The position numbers and the translations under genes were made by a program. 47,212 nt of DNA. It comes from an uncultured beta proteobacterium (GTDB lineage: Bacteria; Pseudomonadota; Gammaproteobacteria; Burkholderiales; Rhodocyclaceae). The notes under the pieces are model-generated. The model made no database searches and was not told where the DNA came from. It saw only the letters and a program-made list of their open reading frames with translations. Positions 20,201-35,472 of the stretch are shown here, piece after piece; position 1 is the stretch's first letter, and every line of letters starts with the position of its first letter. The stretch covers positions 1 through 47,212 of the forward strand of contig CAIXSK010000062.1 of assembly GCA_903922075.1 (NCBI GenBank), read 5' to 3'.

Positions 20201-22540
20201 ATGCAAGATACCTTGACTGCCCTTCAAAACGAGAACGCTCGCCTGATTGCCTTGCTCGAGGAACATGGTATCGAATGGCGCTTGCCTCAACCTCCAACAG
20301 CCACTGTGCCAGTCATTGAACCGGTTCTGCTGTCGACAGCAGAAAAAGTAGCGCTTTTCCGTGCTCTGTTTCGAGGCAGGACCGATGTTTATCCCGTTCG
20401 CTGGGAAAGCAAAACGACAGGAAAGGCGGGTTACTCGCCTGCCTGCGCCAATGAGTGGCGCTCAGGTATCTGCATCAAGCCGCGCGGAAAGTGTTCGGAC
20501 TGCGGGCAGCGGCTCTTGCTGCCGCTCACCGATTCGGTCCTTTATGACCATTTGGCCGGCGAACATACGGTCGGTGTCTATCCCTTGCTTGAAGACGATA
20601 CTTGCCACTTCCTGGCTGTCGATTTTGACAAGCAGGATTGGCGGGAGGATGCGCAGGCGTTTGCGCAGTCATGTCGAGCGCTTGGGGTGCCTGCTGCCTT
20701 GGAGATTTCCCGCTCCGGCAATGGTGCTCATGCCTGGATGTTTTTCGAGCACAAGGTCGATGCCAGGGATGCCAGGCGTCTGGGGAGTGCGCTCATCAGC
20801 CATACCTGTGCGCGTACCAAGCAATTACAACTGGAATCCTACGACCGTCTGTTTCCCAACCAGGACACCATGCCCAGGGGCGGTTTCGGCAACCTGATTG
20901 CGTTGCCGCTCCAGAAGCATGCCCGGGAAAAAGGAGGCAGTGTTTTCGTGGATGACGACCTTCAGGTTTACGCAGACCAATGGGCCTTCTTGGCATCGGT
21001 GAAGCGGATGAAGGTCGCAGATATGGAAGCAGTTATTTTCCAGGCCACGGGGAGTTCTCACCCCCTCGATGTGACGTTTATCGAGGAAGAAGATAACGAA
21101 ACACCGTGGAGGCGACCGCCGGCGGCGAGCAAAAAATTGGCTGGCATCATGCCCAAGCAGCTGCGTATAACGCTCGCCAATCAGCTCTACTTCGAGAAAG
21201 AGGCCATGCCACAAATCCTGGCCAACCGCCTCATTCGCTTGGCGGCCTTCCAGAATCCTGAGTTCTATAAGGCCCAGGCGATGCGTTTTCCGGTATGGGA
21301 TACACCTCGGGTCATCGGCTGCGCGGAGAACTATCCTCAGCATATCGCCTTGCCCCGTGGCTGCCTGGATGCCGTGCTCGAACTTTTGTCAGCGAACAGC
21401 ATCGAGCCAATCCTCGTTGACGAGCGTTTTTCGGGGGAGCCAATCGAAGCGCATTTTGAGGGATTGCTGCGTATCGACCAGGAAGCGGCTGTATCCGCCA
21501 TGATGCACCAGGAGGTTGGTGTCCTATGCGCGCCAACGGCCTTTGGCAAGACAGTAACGGCAGCGGCCATGATTGCCAGGCGAGGCATCAATACCCTTAT
21601 CCTGGTTCATCGGACCGAGTTATTGAAACAGTGGCAGGAACGGCTGAAAGCCCTTCTGGGCCTTGGCAAGGAAACGCTAGGTACCGTCGGGGGCGGCAAG
21701 TCGAAGGCCACTGGAAAAATCGACATTGCCGTCATGCAATCTCTCTCACGCAAGGGTGAGGTTAATCCCATTGTCGAGAACTACGGGCAAATCATTGTCG
21801 ATGAGTGTCACCATATCGGTGCTATTTCGTTTGATGCGCTATTGAGGCGGGCCAGGGCCAAGTACGTCCTTGGCCTGACCGCAACGCCAATACGCCGTGA
21901 TGGACAACATCCCATCATCTTCATGCAATGCGGACCGGTCCGGTACAAGGCGGAGCGACCGGCGACGGCGCCGCATCGACTGGAAGTGCATCCCCGGAAT
22001 CGTTTTCAGGGAATTGAGTTGCCGCCTGAGGCAGCCATTCAAGACGTGTTCCGGTACTTGGCAGCAGATACCAAGAGGACACGGGAAATTGCCCAGGAGG
22101 TCATCGACAACTTCAGGGCTGGCAGGAAAATTCTTGTGCTCACCGAGCGCACTGACCACCTCGATGAGCTGGAAAAAGCGCTTCTGCCAGAGATTCCCCA
22201 GCTTTTTCTGCTGCACGGCCGAATGTCGCGCAAGCAGCGTAACGCCATCACCGTGGATTTGGATGCCTTGCCACCTGATGTGCCCCGCGTACTTCTTGCC
22301 ACAGGTAAATTGGTGGGGGAGGGGTTTGACCACCCAGCCCTGGACACCTTGATACTCGCTATGCCCGTTTCCTGGAAAGGAACCTTGCAGCAATACGCGG
22401 GGCGCCTGCACCGCGAGCACAGCACGAAGTCGGACGTACGTGTCATCGATTTTGTGGACGCCAGCCACCCTGCGCTCAATCGGATGTGGGAGAAACGGCT
22501 CCGTGGCTACCGGGCGATGGGGTACGGCGTGGTTACCTAA
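20201..22540 (+). CDS. TOTE-type archaeo-eukaryotic primase fused to SF2 helicase
   Basis: 779 aa; 'CHFLAVDFDKQDW', 'ISRSGNGAHAWMFF', 'MPRGGFGNLIALPLQ' (AEP/TOTE); 'LCAPTAFGKTVTAA', 'IIVDECHHI', 'LGLTATPIRRDG' (helicase). Confidence 0.85.
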   Translation: MQDTLTALQNENARLIALLEEHGIEWRLPQPPTATVPVIEPVLLSTAEKVALFRALFRGRTDVYPVRWESKTTGKAGYSPACANEWRSGICIKPRGKCSDCGQRLLLPLTDSVLYDHLAGEHTVGVYPLLEDDTCHFLAVDFDKQDWREDAQAFAQSCRALGVPAALEISRSGNGAHAWMFFEHKVDARDARRLGSALISHTCARTKQLQLESYDRLFPNQDTMPRGGFGNLIALPLQKHAREKGGSVFVDDDLQVYADQWAFLASVKRMKVADMEAVIFQATGSSHPLDVTFIEEEDNETPWRRPPAASKKLAGIMPKQLRITLANQLYFEKEAMPQILANRLIRLAAFQNPEFYKAQAMRFPVWDTPRVIGCAENYPQHIALPRGCLDAVLELLSANSIEPILVDERFSGEPIEAHFEGLLRIDQEAAVSAMMHQEVGVLCAPTAFGKTVTAAAMIARRGINTLILVHRTELLKQWQERLKALLGLGKETLGTVGGGKSKATGKIDIAVMQSLSRKGEVNPIVENYGQIIVDECHHIGAISFDALLRRARAKYVLGLTATPIRRDGQHPIIFMQCGPVRYKAERPATAPHRLEVHPRNRFQGIELPPEAAIQDVFRYLAADTKRTREIAQEVIDNFRAGRKILVLTERTDHLDELEKALLPEIPQLFLLHGRMSRKQRNAITVDLDALPPDVPRVLLATGKLVGEGFDHPALDTLILAMPVSWKGTLQQYAGRLHREHSTKSDVRVIDFVDASHPALNRMWEKRLRGYRAMGYGVVT

Positions 22541-22714: not shown

Positions 22715-23935
22715 CTAACTCTGGCTGAACATGCCATTGAGAAGGAGGGGAACCCCTGAAAACACCTCGCTCTCAGCGATGCTTTTCATCGCCTCCGGCC
22801 AGCAAATCCGTTCTTGCTCAAGCCGGATGTTGTTATTCCACCTACCGGTGCGTAGTCCTTCAAAAGCATCCCGCTCAGTTGGCGTCAGTAGGGGGAGTTC
22901 AGTTTCAGAAGACGGGATGCTCTCTTCAACCCATAAGTCCTGGTAGGCCAGCAATGTAGCCGAATCCATCATGACCGACAGAAGATTGGGGAAGTAGCTT
23001 CGTGCTCGATTGAGGATGGCAAATCCGTGTGTGTCGATGTCACCCCAGTAAAGCATGGAACAATCCTGTAACCAGGTTAAGCCCGACAGCAGGCTCACCG
23101 CGTTACCAAGGCGCATGAACGCTACCGTGTCTGGAATGTCCGCTAGGGCCAACCCGGTTTCCAGGTTTTCAACAATGATGACGCGCTTGGGGGTGATGGC
23201 TAGCTCGCTTAACTCTGTCACAGGGGCTTCAATATCTCTCAGACCACCGAGCATGCTACGCAACTTCGGGCAAAGAATTCGGGCGCGTATTCTGGGCACG
23301 GGCCGTTTCAAACCACATATTGAGTAGAAGTCGGCCACATCATCGATGGCGCGAATACTTCTCAGCAGGTCGGTCACAACGCCAGCCCTCTTTTCAAGCC
23401 ATTTGGTATCAAGGCCGGCAACTGGCAGTTGTCGGGGAGCCAAGCCCGAGGAGGGATTTTTCTCCAACCAGTCGAGCATAGAAAACAGACGTGTGAAATC
23501 AGTATCGGCGTAATCGGCCAAAACACCGAAATGTCGTCCCAGGACAGTGTGGGCTGCCAGCTGTGGCCAGCGGTCTACAAAACGCTGGTAACGCTCAGCG
23601 GCTGTTCTCCAGCGCTTACCTTGACCAATGAATGATGCAACGTCACTGGGTGCGGCGATTTCCAAACTGGCCGGCAAATTTTGAGTACCCAAGCGGGACC
23701 ATTGTCGAGATACCCAAGTCAGCTTGGCTGGGCCGTGCCAGTCGCTCCAGGCTTCAACCCAATGCCTGACTCCGCCAATATCCTGAGTGGCATCGGTTTC
23801 TGTTGGGATGCCGAGATTGACGGTTATCGGCCATTGGCCTTCTCCTAACAACCAAGCTTTGTGCTGGTTGGTGTATCGGCGGGTAAGCCATTCGATGACA
23901 TCTTTAGGCAGCAGCAGCTTCTTGGCCATTGCCAT
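22715..23935 (-). CDS. jetD: Wadjet nuclease subunit JetD (DUF3322/DUF2220, Toprim-like)
   Basis: 406 aa; 'VIIVENLETGLALADIPDTVAFMRLGNAV', 'MLYWGDIDTHGFAILNRARSYFP'; encoded directly after the SMC-like gene. Confidence 0.9.
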   Translation of the reverse strand: MAMAKKLLLPKDVIEWLTRRYTNQHKAWLLGEGQWPITVNLGIPTETDATQDIGGVRHWVEAWSDWHGPAKLTWVSRQWSRLGTQNLPASLEIAAPSDVASFIGQGKRWRTAAERYQRFVDRWPQLAAHTVLGRHFGVLADYADTDFTRLFSMLDWLEKNPSSGLAPRQLPVAGLDTKWLEKRAGVVTDLLRSIRAIDDVADFYSICGLKRPVPRIRARILCPKLRSMLGGLRDIEAPVTELSELAITPKRVIIVENLETGLALADIPDTVAFMRLGNAVSLLSGLTWLQDCSMLYWGDIDTHGFAILNRARSYFPNLLSVMMDSATLLAYQDLWVEESIPSSETELPLLTPTERDAFEGLRTGRWNNNIRLEQERICWPEAMKSIAESEVFSGVPLLLNGMFSQS

Positions 23936-26900
23936 CCTCCGGTTTCAACTTCAGGCGTTGGCTTTCTTCATCGTATTCAATCGGGATTGCAGCCGAGTAT
24001 TTCCGGTTCTTGATATGAATAAAGCAGGCACCGCCGATAAAGGGCTCGAGGGTCATCACCGATTTCAGCGGGGTGGCGACAATCATCTGGAAGCCGAAGG
24101 TCTTGAATATGTTCATCGCCATGGCGGTGAATTCGGCATCGGCTTTATCAAAGGCCTCATCCAGAACGACGGTTGAGAAGGTCGGCAATTCACGACCATG
24201 ACTGCCTAGTTGATAGCGCAGTGCTGCTGCCAGGCACGTCGCGGCCAATTTCTGGCGCTGGCCTCCTGACTTGCCTGCTCCACTGCGGTAGACCTCAATC
24301 TCGAGGCCGGAGGCATCAAGTTCTCGGGCAACAAATTCCACATGCTGTCGTACGTCGAGGACCAAAGCACGCCAGTTACGGTCGGCCGTTTCTTGGCTCG
24401 ATAGTTTCTTGACCAATTCATTGAGTACCGAGAAGCGAGACTCTGCCGCTTCCTTGTCCTGGCTAAAGGAGTGGCTCAGCGCATCCTTCAGGCTTTGTTT
24501 GAAGTCGAGAACATCTTTCAACATCCGGTCGTGTGTATCAATAACCAAATGGGTGCCGGGCCCGAATGGTGCGGTTTCCAGGCTTTCATTGACCACATCC
24601 ATACGGTCGCGGATGGCCTTTCGCTCCTGGTCGAGTTGGGTGGACAGGCGAGTCAGGTTTTGGTCGCTCTGCTCTTGCAATAGGCGCAGGAAGCGTTCCT
24701 CGAACTCTGGAAGCCCATCTTGTTCAAGGCGCCGCAGCTTGGCGAAGAAATCATCGGCACTGGCCATGGTGGGGTCGAGGCCGCCAGCCTCGGCTGGCCA
24801 GGTGGAAACAAACCGCTGGAAGCGCTCCTCAATAGCTCGGACATGGTTGTTAATTTGCTGGCCTAGGCCTTGGAGCTCTTTATTGATGCCTCTCACGACT
24901 TGCAGTGCGGCATTGGTCAAGTTTGTCAGGGTCAATGTGCTACTGGCTTCACCAAAGCGCTGATTGAGCGCTTCCATTTGTTGTGGGGCGATTGAGAATG
25001 CCAGAAGCTCAAACCGCAATGCGCCCATACTGATTTTGAGCTTTTCAAGCTCCGAACCTTTCGCAAGGAGGTTTGCTGCGTACGCATTTTGTTTGCGCTG
25101 CTCTGCGTCGTGTAGCTCAGCTTGCTTTTTGATTTGCTCGTCCAACGTAGCTAAGTCGGGATGTGCTTCGAGTTCCGTCCTGAGTTGTTCTTGCAGACTG
25201 GTGATGCGAGTCAGCATCGAGGCAACGTCCACCTCGCTCCATTGAAGATTGGCTAGGGTCTGACAGTGCAATAGCCGCTGCTCAGTCATTTCGCTGCGCG
25301 TTTGATGTGCTTCCAGCTCTTTGCGAAGCTTTTCGTGCTCAGTGGCCAATTCCAGGGCGCGACGTTCGTATAGCGTTCGTTTTGCCTTGTTGTCGAAACC
25401 CAGCACCCACTGGGTTTGGTCATCAATGCGGCGCCGGTCATCTTTCTCGTGGCGAATTGTGTTGTGCTTGACCTGTCCTTCTTTGGTGACGGCGCGTGTC
25501 GCATTGCGAAAAGCCTGAAGGCTGTCGACACACTCGTAGTTGAAGTGGGCTTTCAGCTCTTCACGCAGCCACTCCGTAAGTGGCCCGCGGGCAAATTTCA
25601 GTTTGCTGACGATTGAGTTCGCTCCAACCGTGCGCATCTCCGTGCTGCGTTCAATCACCCGCAAGTAAGTCAGTCGTTCCCCAATGTTTTGCTCATTGAG
25701 ATAAGCCGCGACAGCAGCGTAGTGCTTGTCCGGAACCAAGAGAGAGCGTGCAAATCCGCCGAGCACACGTTCAATAGCGCCTTGCCACTCATGCTCCTCC
25801 TCCTTCACCTCAATGAGTTCGCCCGCATAGGGCAGTTTTTCCTCGGGAATCTCCAAGGTTTTTGCCATGTGCTCCCGGATGCCCAGAAGGCGGGATGGGA
25901 TATTGGATGGATGCTTCTCCATCGCCGCAATTTCCTGGCGCGTCTCAGTAAAGTTACGTTCGCAAGTTTTGAGTTGGTCTCGCAGTTCAACGGTTTTCTC
26001 GAGCTGCTCTGCTCGCCTCTCCTTGGCGCCCAAAAGCTCTCGGCGAGCCTCATCGGCTCGTTCCGTGAATTCAGTGGCAGTGCTGGGATAGGGCCAACCG
26101 ATACCCTGGCAAGCGGTTTCCGCTTGGCTACGTTTACCGATGCGTGCATCGCGTTGCGACTCTGCTTCCTTGACGTCGCGACTTAATTGCTCGATGCGGC
26201 TACCGCCTGAATCAAGGCGCTTCTGTTGCAATCCCTGAAGGGTCTCAAATGCATTGCGTGTTGCACTCTCTTGCTCTTTTGCCTGGGCTTGCAGCCCCGC
26301 GATAGCCACTTCCTGCTCATGGATAGCAGTCGTCAAAAGGCGCTTTTTTTCTCGTTCTGAATAGGCATCGATGGCCAATGAGAGAGCTTCTAGCTCAGTT
26401 CTGGAGCGTTGGGTCGCTTCGAGCAGGAAGGATTCCGCTTGGGCGGGCTTGAGGGTTTCAATCTGCCGACGCGCTTCGACAACGGCTTTGTGCGCTTCAT
26501 TGAGTTCCTGGAACTGTGACACCAGGTTGTCGGCCAACTCGAACGTCTCGGGTGCGTCGAGCATGAAATCACGGAGGAAGGTATTGAGGTCTCCCAGATT
26601 CTTGGCGGATTGAGTCTTGTGCAGCAGGCGGAGCGCACGCTCGTTATCAATGTCGAGGAGTTGCCGAAAGCGTTCCTGATAGCTGCTGAATTCCTCCTTG
26701 ACCGTGGCATCAGGTAGGTCGAATTTGAAACGGCGTACCTCGAAATTGTGGTCCGCGAAAAACTGTAGTTCCCGAACGTCGAATGGGCGCTGGAGTATCA
26801 AATAGCGCTTGTGCACATCACCGAGTGAGCTACTCTTGCCGCGAATCCAAAAAACCTGGGCGAGAACAACGACACGCCCCGTTCCGTCGCGATAGGTCTC

Positions 26901-27284
26901 GGCAATGGCTGACCAAGTGGTTTCCGGCCGCAGATATTGGGAGACGTATTCACCCGCATCCCCTGTTTGCTGGGACCACGCCCCGCGGACATAGGTGATG
27001 AGGTTTCGGTCTTTGCCGTGGCGCTCGTCCTGACGAGCTGCTACGTTGAAGTCCACCCATTTGGGTGGGGTCAAAATGGCCGAATGGGCATCCAAAGCCG
27101 TCGACTTTCCGGAACCAGACGGGCCGAGAAATGCATAACCGCTGCGGGGAATCGAGAAATCGACGATGCCGTTAAAAGTGCCCCAGTTGAATAATTGGAT
27201 GTGGGTGAGGCGAAACTGGTTGATGTCAGCCGAGCCCTCTGCAAAGAAATTCAAGGTGCTCTGCGGGTTTCTATTCATGCTCAT
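23904..27284 (-). CDS. jetC: Wadjet SMC-like ATPase JetC
   Basis: Walker A 'FLGPSGSGKSTALDAHSAIL', long coiled coil, ABC signature-like 'KSGGQRQKLAATCLAAAL', Walker B 'STVVLDEAFDKADAEF'; start at 27284 or 27278 preferred over 27332. Confidence 0.92.
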   Translation of the reverse strand: MSMNRNPQSTLNFFAEGSADINQFRLTHIQLFNWGTFNGIVDFSIPRSGYAFLGPSGSGKSTALDAHSAILTPPKWVDFNVAARQDERHGKDRNLITYVRGAWSQQTGDAGEYVSQYLRPETTWSAIAETYRDGTGRVVVLAQVFWIRGKSSSLGDVHKRYLILQRPFDVRELQFFADHNFEVRRFKFDLPDATVKEEFSSYQERFRQLLDIDNERALRLLHKTQSAKNLGDLNTFLRDFMLDAPETFELADNLVSQFQELNEAHKAVVEARRQIETLKPAQAESFLLEATQRSRTELEALSLAIDAYSEREKKRLLTTAIHEQEVAIAGLQAQAKEQESATRNAFETLQGLQQKRLDSGGSRIEQLSRDVKEAESQRDARIGKRSQAETACQGIGWPYPSTATEFTERADEARRELLGAKERRAEQLEKTVELRDQLKTCERNFTETRQEIAAMEKHPSNIPSRLLGIREHMAKTLEIPEEKLPYAGELIEVKEEEHEWQGAIERVLGGFARSLLVPDKHYAAVAAYLNEQNIGERLTYLRVIERSTEMRTVGANSIVSKLKFARGPLTEWLREELKAHFNYECVDSLQAFRNATRAVTKEGQVKHNTIRHEKDDRRRIDDQTQWVLGFDNKAKRTLYERRALELATEHEKLRKELEAHQTRSEMTEQRLLHCQTLANLQWSEVDVASMLTRITSLQEQLRTELEAHPDLATLDEQIKKQAELHDAEQRKQNAYAANLLAKGSELEKLKISMGALRFELLAFSIAPQQMEALNQRFGEASSTLTLTNLTNAALQVVRGINKELQGLGQQINNHVRAIEERFQRFVSTWPAEAGGLDPTMASADDFFAKLRRLEQDGLPEFEERFLRLLQEQSDQNLTRLSTQLDQERKAIRDRMDVVNESLETAPFGPGTHLVIDTHDRMLKDVLDFKQSLKDALSHSFSQDKEAAESRFSVLNELVKKLSSQETADRNWRALVLDVRQHVEFVARELDASGLEIEVYRSGAGKSGGQRQKLAATCLAAALRYQLGSHGRELPTFSTVVLDEAFDKADAEFTAMAMNIFKTFGFQMIVATPLKSVMTLEPFIGGACFIHIKNRKYSAAIPIEYDEESQRLKLKPEDGNGQEAAAA

Positions 27285-28014
27285 CTCCCGTGCTTTGCTC
27301 TTCGTCATCGCCTTCCAGCGGGCCATTTGCATGGTGAGAAAGTCCGCGCTGCTGGATGTCCTGATAGGTGCGCGTGAGCGCTTGAATTTCCTCGGCCGGG
27401 AAAAGTAGTTTCAGCGTCGGTGAAACCTCGAAACGGTCATCCGCCCCGCGGATTTTCTGAAGAAAGTTGAGTTTCTTGGCTTTTTCAATGGCGCCTTGGC
27501 ATTGCTTGTCGAAACGCGCATGGTCGACATTGCCGGTCCGCTCGTAGACACTAAGGTGTTCAATCATCTCCAACCAAGAGACCACAGCACGGTTGCCATC
27601 AGTATTTGCCTGAATGAGCCGTTGGCGGAGGAAGAGGATGAGTACCGATTCCATGAAGGTGAGATTCGCCCGCCGTAACAAAATGGGAATCTCAATGTCG
27701 TCGGCCGCAACCTGGCGCGTAAATGCCACCTTCTGCTCTGGGTCAATCACTAACTCGAGAAAAAGCTCGTGCAGGCGCTGGCGGATGGCCGCTTCATCCC
27801 GTAGGAGCGTTGCCCAAAGGTTGGCCTGGCGCCGTCCGTCAACGGCAGGGCCGAGCAGGAGCTGAACAATTACCCGACGCGTTTCGAGGGGAAGCATTCC
27901 CATATCGCCGGGGAATACGGCAGCGTCTACCTCCTCCTTGCTCTGCGCTTGGTCAGTGGGTTCGTCCGGCTGAAGCGCTTCACTGGAGCAACTGTCATTC
28001 GTTGAATAGTTCAA
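27271..28014 (-). CDS. jetB: Wadjet subunit JetB (DUF4194)
   Basis: DUF4194-like 'AANLWATLLRDEAAIRQRLHELFLELVID...AFTRQV' located between jetA and jetC; start uncertain (TTG 28014 or ATG 28071). Confidence 0.85.
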   Translation of the reverse strand: MNYSTNDSCSSEALQPDEPTDQAQSKEEVDAAVFPGDMGMLPLETRRVIVQLLLGPAVDGRRQANLWATLLRDEAAIRQRLHELFLELVIDPEQKVAFTRQVAADDIEIPILLRRANLTFMESVLILFLRQRLIQANTDGNRAVVSWLEMIEHLSVYERTGNVDHARFDKQCQGAIEKAKKLNFLQKIRGADDRFEVSPTLKLLFPAEEIQALTRTYQDIQQRGLSHHANGPLEGDDEEQSTGDEHE

Positions 28015-29461
28015 GCATGCTCTCCCTGACAAAATAGATGGCCGGTACCTTGGCCTTTCGTTGTTTTTCATCGCTGCCGAGCCACGAGACAAGCTCGGTC
28101 TCGCTAGTGACTTCTCCGTGCTTGGCTCCTAACGCAACGTAGCCAACGACACTGCCAAAGCCCTGTTCCGCAGGAAACCTATTCAGCAACTGGCCAACAG
28201 TGATTTGTGACTGTTCGGAAAGCGCTTCTCTGAGATGTTGGCGCAAGGTGCGGAAATCGATTTCAGACTGGCGCACCAGCTCCTCTACGACATCAAGTCC
28301 CAGTTCCGACGGCTCCGCTTCTGGCATGGCGGTATCGGCAACATTCAGGCTCGGGTCGTGAAGTTCCCACTGGCTCACCGAGCGAAGGCGACTACTGGTT
28401 AGCGACAGGGAATAATCGAGCTGCGAGTTCGGGCGAATGGAGTCACGCGCCTGAAGAGCTGCCTGCTGCGCTTCGCGCAATAGACTGTGCAGACGTCGCT
28501 GTTCTTGGAACTCACGGCTCTGCACGAAGGTTTTGAGGCTACGGGCGAATTGCTGGACGACTTCATGCACACTGCCGCCTTCGGCCATCAAGGTTCCCGT
28601 CAGGTTTTGCAGGAAGCGTCGTTCCTTCAATTCCAAGCCGCGCGCAAACGCGCGGGAGGTGACAGATTCCAGGGACTCCATCAGCGTTGCCGCTTGCTCA
28701 CCATCCGTTAGCAGGCGCCAGAAGGCGTTAAAGGTTTTTCCATGCTCACTCTGGGCAATCAGGTCCACACCTGCAAACAACGCTTCCAGAACCTCGCCTC
28801 GACTGCCGTCGCTCTCCATCAAGCTTTGGCGGAGTCCTCGATTCAGCTTGTCGAACTCATCACGTACGTTGCGGAAATCTGAGGCCAATTCTTCGGCGAG
28901 GGCAATGATTTCGCGGACACGTTCGAGCGCCCGCTCTTCGGGGAGTGTTTTGACGCCCTCTCGTTCTAATGCCAGAAGTTCGGCATCGATGCGTTCTCGT
29001 TCAGCGATGAGCGTGGCTCGTCTCGTTTCTGGGTTGGCATCTGTCTCGTCGGCTAGGCGAGTTAGCTGCAGAATGACCGTGGCTAGACGACTTTCGGTGG
29101 CTGCGGTCCGGGGCTTCAACAAGCCATTCAAAAAGCGTAAAGCGCTCGTCGCTTCCGCGGTCAGTTCGAATTCTTCTTCACTTGCCCCAGCTGGAAATCG
29201 CCGGCTGAGCCAGCCTTCACCAATCCAGTCTGCAACGTAAGCTTGCGGTGTCTGCGGGAGGTCATGGCCATGAGCACGGAGCGTATCGATTTCTCGCGAT
29301 AAACGTTCGTGGAAAACCGAGCTGGGAAGGGTTTTCTCCTGTTCGAGCAGTAGGCATTGCATCAATCCCATTACCAATGGGGCCTTGTCGGCAGCCAGTA
29401 ATCGCCATAAAGGTCGGCTACGCAAGGCGATAAGAGCCGCTGAAGCACGCAGTGCTTTCAT
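27995..29461 (-). CDS. jetA: Wadjet subunit JetA (DUF3375)
   Basis: MKALRASAALIALRSRPLWRLLAADKAPLVMGLMQCLL... DUF3375-like; first gene of the jet operon. Confidence 0.9.
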   Translation of the reverse strand: MKALRASAALIALRSRPLWRLLAADKAPLVMGLMQCLLLEQEKTLPSSVFHERLSREIDTLRAHGHDLPQTPQAYVADWIGEGWLSRRFPAGASEEEFELTAEATSALRFLNGLLKPRTAATESRLATVILQLTRLADETDANPETRRATLIAERERIDAELLALEREGVKTLPEERALERVREIIALAEELASDFRNVRDEFDKLNRGLRQSLMESDGSRGEVLEALFAGVDLIAQSEHGKTFNAFWRLLTDGEQAATLMESLESVTSRAFARGLELKERRFLQNLTGTLMAEGGSVHEVVQQFARSLKTFVQSREFQEQRRLHSLLREAQQAALQARDSIRPNSQLDYSLSLTSSRLRSVSQWELHDPSLNVADTAMPEAEPSELGLDVVEELVRQSEIDFRTLRQHLREALSEQSQITVGQLLNRFPAEQGFGSVVGYVALGAKHGEVTSETELVSWLGSDEKQRKAKVPAIYFVRESMLELFNE

Positions 29462-29515
29462 TGGCGGCACCTTACATCATGGCTTGTTTTGAGCATTGTC
29501 CTATCCAAAATAGAT

Positions 29516-29538
29516 GAACGTATAAAAACTATACGTTC
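29516..29538. promoter_or_regulatory. Palindromic putative WYL-regulator operator, copy 1
   Basis: GAACGTATA-AAAAC-TATACGTTC, perfect 9-bp arms. Confidence 0.75.
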
Positions 29539-29549
29539 AAAATTGCCGT

Positions 29550-29568
29550 ACGTAAAGTTTTTATACGT
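29550..29568. promoter_or_regulatory. Second, inverted copy of the putative operator
   Basis: ACGTAAAGTTTTTATACGT; its reverse complement matches the copy-1 core at 18 of 19 positions. Confidence 0.72.
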
Positions 29569-29585
29569 GTGCTACAGTGGTTGGC

Positions 29586-30473
29586 ATGAAAAAGATGGCC
29601 AATCAACGCGCAGAACCGGACTTGCCTACCCGCTGGGGGCCTGAGAAACGGCTTGAGTTCATCGACTTTCGCTTGCGATGGGACGGTCGATTGAACCGGG
29701 GGGACATCTCCGATTTCTTCGGAATCTCGACACCACAAGCCTCCCTCGACATTGCTCGCTACCTAGAGATGGCGCCTCTGAATGCTGTTTACGACCGCAG
29801 TGAGCGAAGCTACGTCGCAACTCGAGACTTCCAACCGGTTTTCCCCTCCAGTCAGCCACAGAAATACCTCAATGACTTGCTAATGCAAGCATATGGCATA
29901 TTAGACCAAGGTGTCAGTTTTTCCGGGTGGCTACCATCAGTTGCCGTTGCACCGACGCCAGCCCGAACCTTGCGGGCCGAGACCCTGATTGCGTTGATAG
30001 GGTCAATACGGCGATGCCAGGCTCTTGAGATGGCTTATCAGTCGATGACGAGTCCGATTCCAAAAAAACGCCTTGTTTCCCCTCGAGCGCTAGGGTTCGA
30101 TGGGCACCGCTGGCATGTTCGGGTTTATTGTCACCAAGAGGACGGATTTCGGGACTTTGTTATTGCTCGGATTCTCTCGCTCGGAAATGAGCAGCAACCC
30201 CCAACAGTGCCGCCCATCGACCAGGATTGGGAGACCTTGGTTACCCTCGTATTGGCGCCAAACCCTGGATTGCCCGATGCACATCAGCGGGTTATTGAAC
30301 TGGACTATGGAATGGTGAATGGCGAGCTACGCTTTGAATGCAAACGAGCGCTGCTGCTTTACGTTGTTCGGAACCTTGGCTTGGATGGCGCAGAAGGGAA
30401 AGCTCCCAGGGTTCAACAAATTGTCCTGCGTAATCTTGCCGAGATTGCCCCACTTTTGCCCGCGCAGAACTAA
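29586..30473 (+). CDS. HTH-WYL transcriptional regulator (CapW/BrxR-like) divergent from jetABCD
   Basis: N-terminal winged-helix-like 'RLEFIDFRLRWDGRLNRGDISDFFGISTPQASLDIARYLEM'; WYL-like 'LVSPRALGFDGHRWHVRVYCHQEDGFRDFVIARIL'. Confidence 0.85.
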   Translation: MKKMANQRAEPDLPTRWGPEKRLEFIDFRLRWDGRLNRGDISDFFGISTPQASLDIARYLEMAPLNAVYDRSERSYVATRDFQPVFPSSQPQKYLNDLLMQAYGILDQGVSFSGWLPSVAVAPTPARTLRAETLIALIGSIRRCQALEMAYQSMTSPIPKKRLVSPRALGFDGHRWHVRVYCHQEDGFRDFVIARILSLGNEQQPPTVPPIDQDWETLVTLVLAPNPGLPDAHQRVIELDYGMVNGELRFECKRALLLYVVRNLGLDGAEGKAPRVQQIVLRNLAEIAPLLPAQN

Positions 30474-30474
30474 G

Positions 30475-31119
30475 TCACTGGTGATTAACGATGGGCAGAA
30501 TGTCCATAAAGTCCGTGTGCATCTGACGAACCTGCACCATGTTCTCTGGATTGCCCGAAAGAATCGCTAGTAACTGTGATGTCAGTGCAACAACGGCATT
30601 GGCGTTCCGAATGACGTCGTAAATCAATTGTGCCGGATAACCACTCATCGTTCGGGATAAGGGATGCAAACCGCCATGGGCATAACTGTTCATGGCCTTC
30701 CAGGTCACCTCTTTGTATTCCCGCAGCTGCGCGACGATGCCTGCCGGCGCATCAGGGTTGGCCTCCAGCTGCTTGAGCATTTCCGCCAGGCCTTCTCCCT
30801 CATTTGCTCGTTTCGCCGACTCCATGGTCAGAGGTTCGGATAGCTTTGTAACCCAGTTCTCGCTCGCCGCGTGGAGCAACCAGATTCCGCGCACTAGGCT
30901 TTCAAACTGGGGCCGGGTCAATGCAATCGCCGAAGAAAACAACCCTTGCTCGAACAGAACCAGCGCACTCACTGCATGCTCCAGCGACAGTAGCCCGGAT
31001 TGAAATGCGGTGATGAACCGTACGTCAGGGTAAGGAGTCAGGGTCTGTACGTGTTGTTGAACCCGCTCATGAAACGTAGCGGTTCGCTCAATGAGCTGGA
31101 GGAGTTTTTCTTCTGTCAC
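30475..31119 (-). CDS. Hypothetical protein, DUF5677/DUF6988-like
   Basis: 214 aa helical protein with 'EHAVSALVLFEQGLFSSAIALTRPQFESLVRGIWLL' and 'MNSYAHGGLHPLSRTM'. Confidence 0.6.
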   Translation of the reverse strand: MTEEKLLQLIERTATFHERVQQHVQTLTPYPDVRFITAFQSGLLSLEHAVSALVLFEQGLFSSAIALTRPQFESLVRGIWLLHAASENWVTKLSEPLTMESAKRANEGEGLAEMLKQLEANPDAPAGIVAQLREYKEVTWKAMNSYAHGGLHPLSRTMSGYPAQLIYDVIRNANAVVALTSQLLAILSGNPENMVQVRQMHTDFMDILPIVNHQ

Positions 31120-33862: not shown

Positions 33863-34126
33863 GTGACGACGCTATCCGATGTTGCCGAGATGCTCAGAAG
33901 TGCTCGCCGCGAAGCGGGGTTGAGCCAGGATGAACTTGCCCGGCGGGCGGGTGTTGCGCGCACGACTGTGGCGCGCATGGAAAACCTGGCCAAGGGTGAC
34001 ATGAGCGTGTCCGCGCTGGTGCGCTTGCTCGAAGCCGCTGGCTACGACCTGAAGCTGGTGAAGCCCGGTCACGCGCGCACGGTCGAGGACATCCTTGCCG
34101 AGCAACGCCGGGGTGATTCCGCATGA
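33863..34126 (+). CDS. hipB: HipB-like Xre-family antitoxin
   Basis: GTG start; HTH 'SARREAGLSQDELARRAGVARTTVARMEN'; ATGA overlap with hipA. Confidence 0.85.
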   Translation: MTTLSDVAEMLRSARREAGLSQDELARRAGVARTTVARMENLAKGDMSVSALVRLLEAAGYDLKLVKPGHARTVEDILAEQRRGDSA

Positions 34127-35472
34127 GGCTCGATGTTCAGGTCAGCGGCAAGACCGTCGCCCGGCTCTGGCGGGAGCGCGACGAGTACGTCCTGAAATAT
34201 CTGCCTGACACCGATCCGGCCGATTTCGTCAGCCTGACCATGCCGGTGCGTGATGAACCTTGGCGCTGGCCGCGTGACCTGCACCCGTTCTTTCGCCAAA
34301 ATCTGCCCGAAGGCTATCTGCTGAACATCATCCGCGAGGAGTTCGGGCCACTGATCGATGGCACGGATTTGTCCCTGCTGGCAGTTGTTGGTGGCACCGG
34401 CATCGGCCGTGTCACGGTCACGCCCGAGGGGGGCAAGCCCGGCGGGGAGATTGAGCCACTGCAGATCGAGAGCCTGCTGACGGCTGAGAACACCGCCGAG
34501 CATTTCGCATTGCTGGTCCGCCGCTATGCCCGCTCGTCGATTTCGGGCGTGGTGCCCAAGTTCATCGCGCCAGAAGAAACGCCCGACGAGGTGCTGGGAG
34601 CACTGGGCAAGCCCACGCTGCGCACCAGTCGCCACATCGTCAAAGGCTCGGACGACAGCACGCCCTACCTCGGCTTCAACGAGTTCTACAGCATGCGCGT
34701 GCTGGAGCGCCTGAATGTCGTACCGGTGGCCCGCACCCGCATGTCCGATGATGGCCGGGTGCTGGTGGTCGAACGCTTCGACGTGGACGAGCATGGCACG
34801 CCGACGCACGGACTCGAAGATGCCTGCGGGCTGCTTGGCCTGCCGCCTCACGAAAAATACGCGACCACCACAGAGAAAGTGCTGAACGCCACGCGTGCCT
34901 ACCTGCCGTCCGCACAGGTACGTGTCCAGTTGGAGCAATTTGGCTGGCAGGTTCTGGCCAACTATGTGGTGCGCAACGCGGACTGCCACGCCAAAAACAT
35001 CGCATTGTCCTACACCCGGCTTGGCGACGTAGCCTTTACGCCGGTCTATGACATCGTGACGACCCAGGCTTACCCACGCTACGCGAGCAACCCGCCGGGG
35101 CTGTCCATCGACGGCCGGCAGACCTGGGCGGCGGGCAAGGCGCTGCAGCGCTTCTTCAATGCGCGGCTCGGCATTGCGCCGCGACACTATGCTGAGATGG
35201 TCGAGCGTTTGTGCGAATCGGCAGTTGAGGTCGGCGAAGAAGTGATCGAAGCGGCCAGGAATGAGCCGCGCTGGCATCCGCTTGCCAAGCAGATGGTGCA
35301 TGCGTGGAATGAAGGCATGTCATCGCTGCGCGACCCGAAGAAGTCCGTAGCGCTCAGAGGCCTGGATGCCGCGATTACTGCGGCTGGCTTCTCCGAGCCC
35401 GAACCGCCCGAGCCGCCCCGCGTGACGACGGGCCGTTCCGAACTGCTGGCGTCGTCACGGCGGAAGCGCTGA
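34123..35472 (+). CDS. hipA: HipA-family Ser/Thr kinase toxin
   Basis: 449 aa; 'LPEGYLLNIIREEFG', 'SSISGVVPKFIAPEE', 'NYVVRNADCHAKNIAL', 'FTPVYDIVTTQAYP'. Confidence 0.9.
   Translation: MRLDVQVSGKTVARLWRERDEYVLKYLPDTDPADFVSLTMPVRDEPWRWPRDLHPFFRQNLPEGYLLNIIREEFGPLIDGTDLSLLAVVGGTGIGRVTVTPEGGKPGGEIEPLQIESLLTAENTAEHFALLVRRYARSSISGVVPKFIAPEETPDEVLGALGKPTLRTSRHIVKGSDDSTPYLGFNEFYSMRVLERLNVVPVARTRMSDDGRVLVVERFDVDEHGTPTHGLEDACGLLGLPPHEKYATTTEKVLNATRAYLPSAQVRVQLEQFGWQVLANYVVRNADCHAKNIALSYTRLGDVAFTPVYDIVTTQAYPRYASNPPGLSIDGRQTWAAGKALQRFFNARLGIAPRHYAEMVERLCESAVEVGEEVIEAARNEPRWHPLAKQMVHAWNEGMSSLRDPKKSVALRGLDAAITAAGFSEPEPPEPPRVTTGRSELLASSRRKR

Follow-up and report, generated by a model that had tools for sequence, protein, structure and literature searches.

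The 47,212-nucleotide stretch of DNA that was analyzed (the window) encodes a type I Wadjet system, with jetA to jetD in order and each product matching its type I model. Wadjet is a plasmid defense system that recognizes and cuts plasmid DNA. The start codons of jetA (29461, minus strand) and of a divergent gene for a WYL-domain transcription factor (29586, plus strand) are separated by a 124-bp intergenic region, and the two putative operator sites of the original prediction were confirmed to lie between them. The features of the locus are listed below.

22715 to 23935, minus strand: jetD (DUF3322/JetD_C), JetD1 match
23904 to 27332, minus strand: jetC (SMC-like ATPase), JetC1 match
27271 to 28092, minus strand: jetB open reading frame (DUF4194/MukE-like), JetB1 match, with homology starting at about residue 38 of the reading frame
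27995 to 29461, minus strand: jetA (DUF3375) of type I Wadjet, JetA1 model match
29515 to 29539, no strand: predicted operator site 1, TGAACGTATA-AAAAC-TATACGTTCA, perfect 10-bp arms, center at 29527
29528 to 29556, minus strand: predicted sigma-70-type jet promoter, −35 TTTACG (29556 to 29551), 17-bp spacer, −10 TATAGT (29533 to 29528)
29534 to 29554, no strand: weak intermediate register, 7/10 consensus positions, center at 29544, 17 bp from site 1 and 15 bp from site 2
29547 to 29571, no strand: predicted operator site 2, core CGTAAA-GTTTT-TATACG at 29551 to 29567, center at 29559
29570 to 29578, plus strand: WYL gene extended −10 (predicted), TGCTACAGT, 7 nt short of the ATG, leaderless-like
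29586 to 30473, plus strand: WYL-domain transcription factor of the CapW/BrxR family, 295 amino acids, WYL Pfam match at 3.4e−10

A TOTE-type archaeo-eukaryotic primase-helicase protein (20201 to 22540, plus strand; AEP-TOTE, E value of 4e−102) adjoins jetD and is a defense-island component without the WYL motif. A DUF6988 protein that matches the PADLOC candidate PDC-S52 is encoded convergently with the WYL gene (30475 to 31119, minus strand), and a HipA-like protein with an N-terminal coupling domain is encoded at 34123 to 35472 (plus strand).

The WYL protein and its relatives

The WYL protein combines winged helix-turn-helix (wHTH), WYL, and WCX domains with homology to CapW and BrxR, which places it in this family. 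Its closest solved relatives are the CapW proteins of P. aeruginosa (7tb5, E value of 2.6e−74) and S. maltophilia (7tb6, 7.4e−73), both matched over nearly the full length, followed by BrxR (7t8k, 1.6e−40). Residues R32, S42, Q45, and S47 of S. maltophilia CapW are required for DNA binding (PMC9122588); they align with R38, S48, Q51, and S53 of the window protein, and all four are kept. The product of 29586 to 30473 is the only WYL-domain protein found in the genome, the assembly of which is ~96% complete.

A search of viral contigs with the full-length WYL protein gave no matches. Stand-alone phage proteins of ~75 to 89 amino acids correspond to the wHTH domain of CapW/BrxR regulators only, without WYL or WCX, and are encoded by Stenotrophomonas phage Sonora (L087:1492-1719) and on viral contigs (L104:1947-2204, L105:1947-2213, and L106:337-558). 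The Sonora protein is 47% identical to the window WYL protein over 72 amino acids, with the recognition stretch FGISTPQAS unchanged, and this stretch reads FGISKPQAS in L104 and L105. None of these wHTH-only proteins matched a PHROG family. They could be ligand-blind repressors that hold WYL-controlled defense operons off, or they could be ordinary phage regulators.

Two palindromes between jetA and the WYL gene

The cores of the two sites are 17-bp palindromes, CGTATA-N5-TATACG in site 1 and CGTAAA-N5-TATACG in site 2, and both score 10/10 at the tested consensus positions. Site 1 was first described as GAACGTATAAAAACTATACGTTC at 29516 to 29538 with perfect 9-bp arms; the arms are indeed perfect, and their length is in fact 10 bp. 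Site 2 is ACGTAAAGTTTTTATACGT at 29550 to 29568, and over these 19 bp the two sites are inverted copies of each other at 18 positions, as had been noted, with 13 bp between the copies. Apart from one arm base, the 5-bp spacer (AAAAC versus GTTTT) is the only difference between them. The center-to-center distance is the predicted 32 bp (~3.05 helical turns), and the predicted 25-bp footprints are separated by 7 bp. None of 2,000 dinucleotide shuffles of the 124-bp intergenic region reproduced the 18/19 inverted match (shuffle maximum, 15), and in none of the 2,000 did a palindrome around a 5-bp spacer reach 10/10 (maximum, 9).

The sites are unique in the genome and conserved among close orthologs. 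No further match to the 19-mer was found at up to three mismatches in the window and the 3.27-Mb genome, and the 17-bp core CGTATA-N5-TATACG occurs at only two places in the genome at up to one mismatch, which are sites 1 and 2. Conservation was assessed in the window and two orthologous regions whose WYL proteins are 95 to 96% identical. Among these three close orthologs only, none of the 34 core bases varied, compared to 17 of 90 other intergenic bases (Fisher P = 0.0027), and the middle of the region (29537 to 29550) was variable.

The mutual inversion of the sites is real but a weak orientation signal, because each site is itself nearly palindromic. Only the window and two close relatives of it showed inverted identity at 18/19 positions; in other relatives the spacing is kept and the inversion is not. 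As a conserved feature, the 19-bp inverted pair was strong only in this close group, with a few other cases at other spacings. Since a strong inverted pair is not the rule among relatives, inversion was dropped as a defining feature, and a functional role for orientation was not supported. An inverted palindrome equals itself, and the pair should not be taken as evidence for looping or for binding that depends on orientation.

The sites overlap the promoter of the defense operon as predicted by consensus, a feature that the original prediction did not have. The scan found one jet promoter versus 0.3 expected (9/12 matches, with an imperfect −35), and it crosses both sites, with the −10 inside site 1 and the −35 inside site 2. 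In relatives L006, L008, L044, and L045, the corresponding distal site also contains a −10 hexamer. Site 2 abuts the predicted extended −10 of the WYL gene, which follows it directly and is unchanged in L003 and L004; consensus prediction gave no good −35 for this gene.

From its sequence, the WYL gene appears to lack a leader. Of eight divergent betaproteobacterial loci, six have a best −10 hexamer that ends 6 to 7 nt before the WYL ATG, without a clear ribosome-binding site (window, 29570 to 29586, and relatives L006, L007, L009, L045, and L094).

The sites resemble characterized operators of the family. Acinetobacter BrxR was crystallized on ATACCGTAAAAATAATTTACTGTAT, which consists of two 10-bp half-sites and a 5-bp spacer (PMC9122589; structures 7t8k/7t8l). 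The window sites share with this BREX operator the 10-5-10 geometry near the regulator gene, the core CGTAnA-N5-TnTAC, and promoter overlap, whereas Acinetobacter BrxR has one site and a WYL gene that is first in the same operon, and the window has two sites and divergent genes. CapW, the closest protein family, represses both divergent directions at CBASS loci, where its sites overlap the −10 of the divergent defense operon (PMC9122588), as the palindromes do here. The S. maltophilia CapW promoter likewise carries two palindromes, the second of which did not bind (PMC9122588). The window differs in that both sites have the full consensus and in that the putative target is Wadjet, not CBASS. 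The same site type was found at CBASS loci L082 and L103; the L082 WYL protein matches P. aeruginosa CapW (7tb5) at an E value of 5e−131, and its upstream region contains other, weak sites besides a strong one, in which a −10-like TATAAT of the cyclase operon lies. R-BOX1 and R-BOX2 of E. fergusonii pEFER BrxR are 11-bp inverted repeats with a 5-bp spacer, two in one island (PMC9122601). They are similar to the window sites in spacer and copy number, but they lie upstream of different genes, and no phased pair in one promoter region is described there. In the BrxR and CapW papers, most promoters have a single bound site (PMC9122588, PMC9122589).

Because the genome's sole WYL protein is a CapW/BrxR relative, and because the sites have matching geometry, invariant cores, and no other copies, sites 1 and 2 are very probably operators of the neighboring WYL protein, as had been proposed.

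Site spacing in related upstream regions

Upstream regions of CapW-like WYL genes were gathered from plasmids and by searching the order, the family, and the phylum, which gave 41 nonredundant relatives. More distant WYL homologs (26 to 38% identity) had different motifs, and most were excluded from the statistics. A palindromic EM motif, which A-tract spacers caused to shift by one base, was replaced by a fixed consensus. The best site scoring at least 8/10 served as the anchor (27 regions, window included), second sites were counted at 7/10 or better, and expectations came from 300 local shuffles. With this consensus, which was derived from sites 1 and 2 together with the BrxR site and hence is not independent of the window, a center distance of 17 bp was observed 11 times versus 0.39 expected, and 32 bp was observed 4 times versus 0.29 expected. 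A distance of 15 bp was also observed 11 times versus 3.2 expected, a figure that is inflated because neighboring arms share a CG, whereas sites 17 and 32 bp apart share no bases. Each of the three counts lay beyond all 300 shuffles.

As 15 plus 17 equals 32, the two strong sites of the window match registers one and three of the three-site arrays seen, for example, in the relatives L007 and L094 (both jetA) and L044 (CBASS neighbor). Two or three sites with moderate to high scores span 32 to 34 bp at the type I Wadjet loci L007 and L094 and at CBASS-type loci such as L044, L046, and L048, and L093 has adjoining sites at a 17-bp distance next to a gene of type III Wadjet.

The WYL gene of L093 is CapW-like (52% identical) and divergent from a type III jetA (PADLOC JetA3, E value of 3e−201), so CapW-type regulators stand at two Wadjet types. 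The jetA homologs L036 to L042 and L050 had no CapW-like neighbor within the flank examined; the pairing of WYL and jetA is therefore not universal for type I Wadjet.

The spacings raise the real, if tentative, possibility that CapW/BrxR-family operators are generally phased arrays (15, 17, and 15 + 17 = 32 bp) in which several dimers or alternative registers cover both divergent promoters, with the window as a two-site version. This arrangement was not part of the original prediction, and as a computational pattern the rule appears to be undescribed in the CapW/BrxR papers (PMC9122588, PMC9122589, PMC9122601).

A candidate repressor switch and its alternatives

In the reading that we consider highly probable, the 53-bp element would serve as the operator region for a bidirectional repressor switch under autoregulation, with two WYL dimers on one face of the DNA. 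The WYL protein would be a CapW/BrxR-type homodimer with N-terminal wHTH, WYL, and WCX domains, and one dimer would occupy each 25-bp palindromic site, side by side on the same helical face. The dimer on site 1 would cover the −10 of jetABCD, and the dimer on site 2 would cover its −35 and also the upstream portion of the extended −10 promoter that drives the WYL gene itself. Transcription of both the Wadjet operon and the regulator would be low while the sites are occupied. Binding of a ligand made during invasion to the WYL/WCX module would release the dimers, and the jet and WYL transcripts would both rise. The ligand of some WYL relatives is a nucleic acid.

Computation supplied the sequence features, their uniqueness and conservation, the protein family, and the promoter overlap by consensus, while family precedent in CapW/BrxR suggests dimerization, binding, repression, and derepression. 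Two dimers could plausibly sit on a single face at this distance of ~3 helical turns. Contact between neighboring dimers is also plausible because BrxR forms higher-order complexes at high concentration (PMC9122589) and bends DNA, and cooperativity between the two dimers is speculative.

The alternative that fares best, although unlikely, is a degenerate array of three or four sites centered at 29512, 29527, 29544, and 29559 (~15/17 bp apart). Dimers would then bind in alternative registers that partly exclude one another, or would nucleate a filament, and the strong sites would simply be registers one and three. The enrichment of 15-, 17-, and 32-bp spacings in the 27 anchored regions, the two or three sites over 32 to 34 bp in relatives that include L007, L094, L044, L046, and L048, and the weak 7/10 sites of the window at 29512 and 29544 are consistent with it. 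However, 7/10 sites are frequent by chance (~1.3 per 175 bp), the shared CG makes the 15-bp register partly automatic, and orthologs vary in the middle of the intergenic region. In relatives, the register equivalent to 29544 holds a real site; in the window, it may be a degenerate site or a chance match.

It is improbable that only the site over the jet −10 functions and that the second is a weaker or vestigial copy; S. maltophilia CapW, which binds one of two palindromes (PMC9122588), is a precedent for this, but both window cores match all tested consensus positions and are invariant among orthologs. Cooperative looping between the inverted sites, which the original prediction had offered, is very improbable. 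The integral helical phasing, the larger complexes of BrxR (PMC9122589), and its bending of DNA would suit a loop, but dimers with footprints 7 bp apart would touch side by side and make one unnecessary, relatives hold intermediate sites within the supposed loop, and 32 bp between centers does not fit a looped operator pair in the style of lac or gal. The least probable reading, an RNA hairpin or terminator (a terminator scan flagged 29539 to 29515 on the minus strand), was rejected because the predicted jet promoter spans the palindrome, so that the transcript would begin inside it, and this reading leaves the second copy and the conservation of both cores unexplained.

The proposed repressor switch is of a CapW/BrxR type that is already known, and its presence at a Wadjet locus is most likely what is new. 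Wadjet is among the systems co-located with BrxR homologs (PMC9122601); our literature search found this co-location only and no description of Wadjet transcriptional control. The locus represents a concrete, testable switch, with one regulator, two sites, two promoters, and no other sites in the genome. The spacing rule among relatives provides a motif for predicting promoters controlled by CapW/BrxR regulators and raises the issue of how an array is divided among several dimers. If the array is family-wide, release would be switch-like, and the arrangement would be common to Wadjet I, Wadjet III, CBASS, and other systems.
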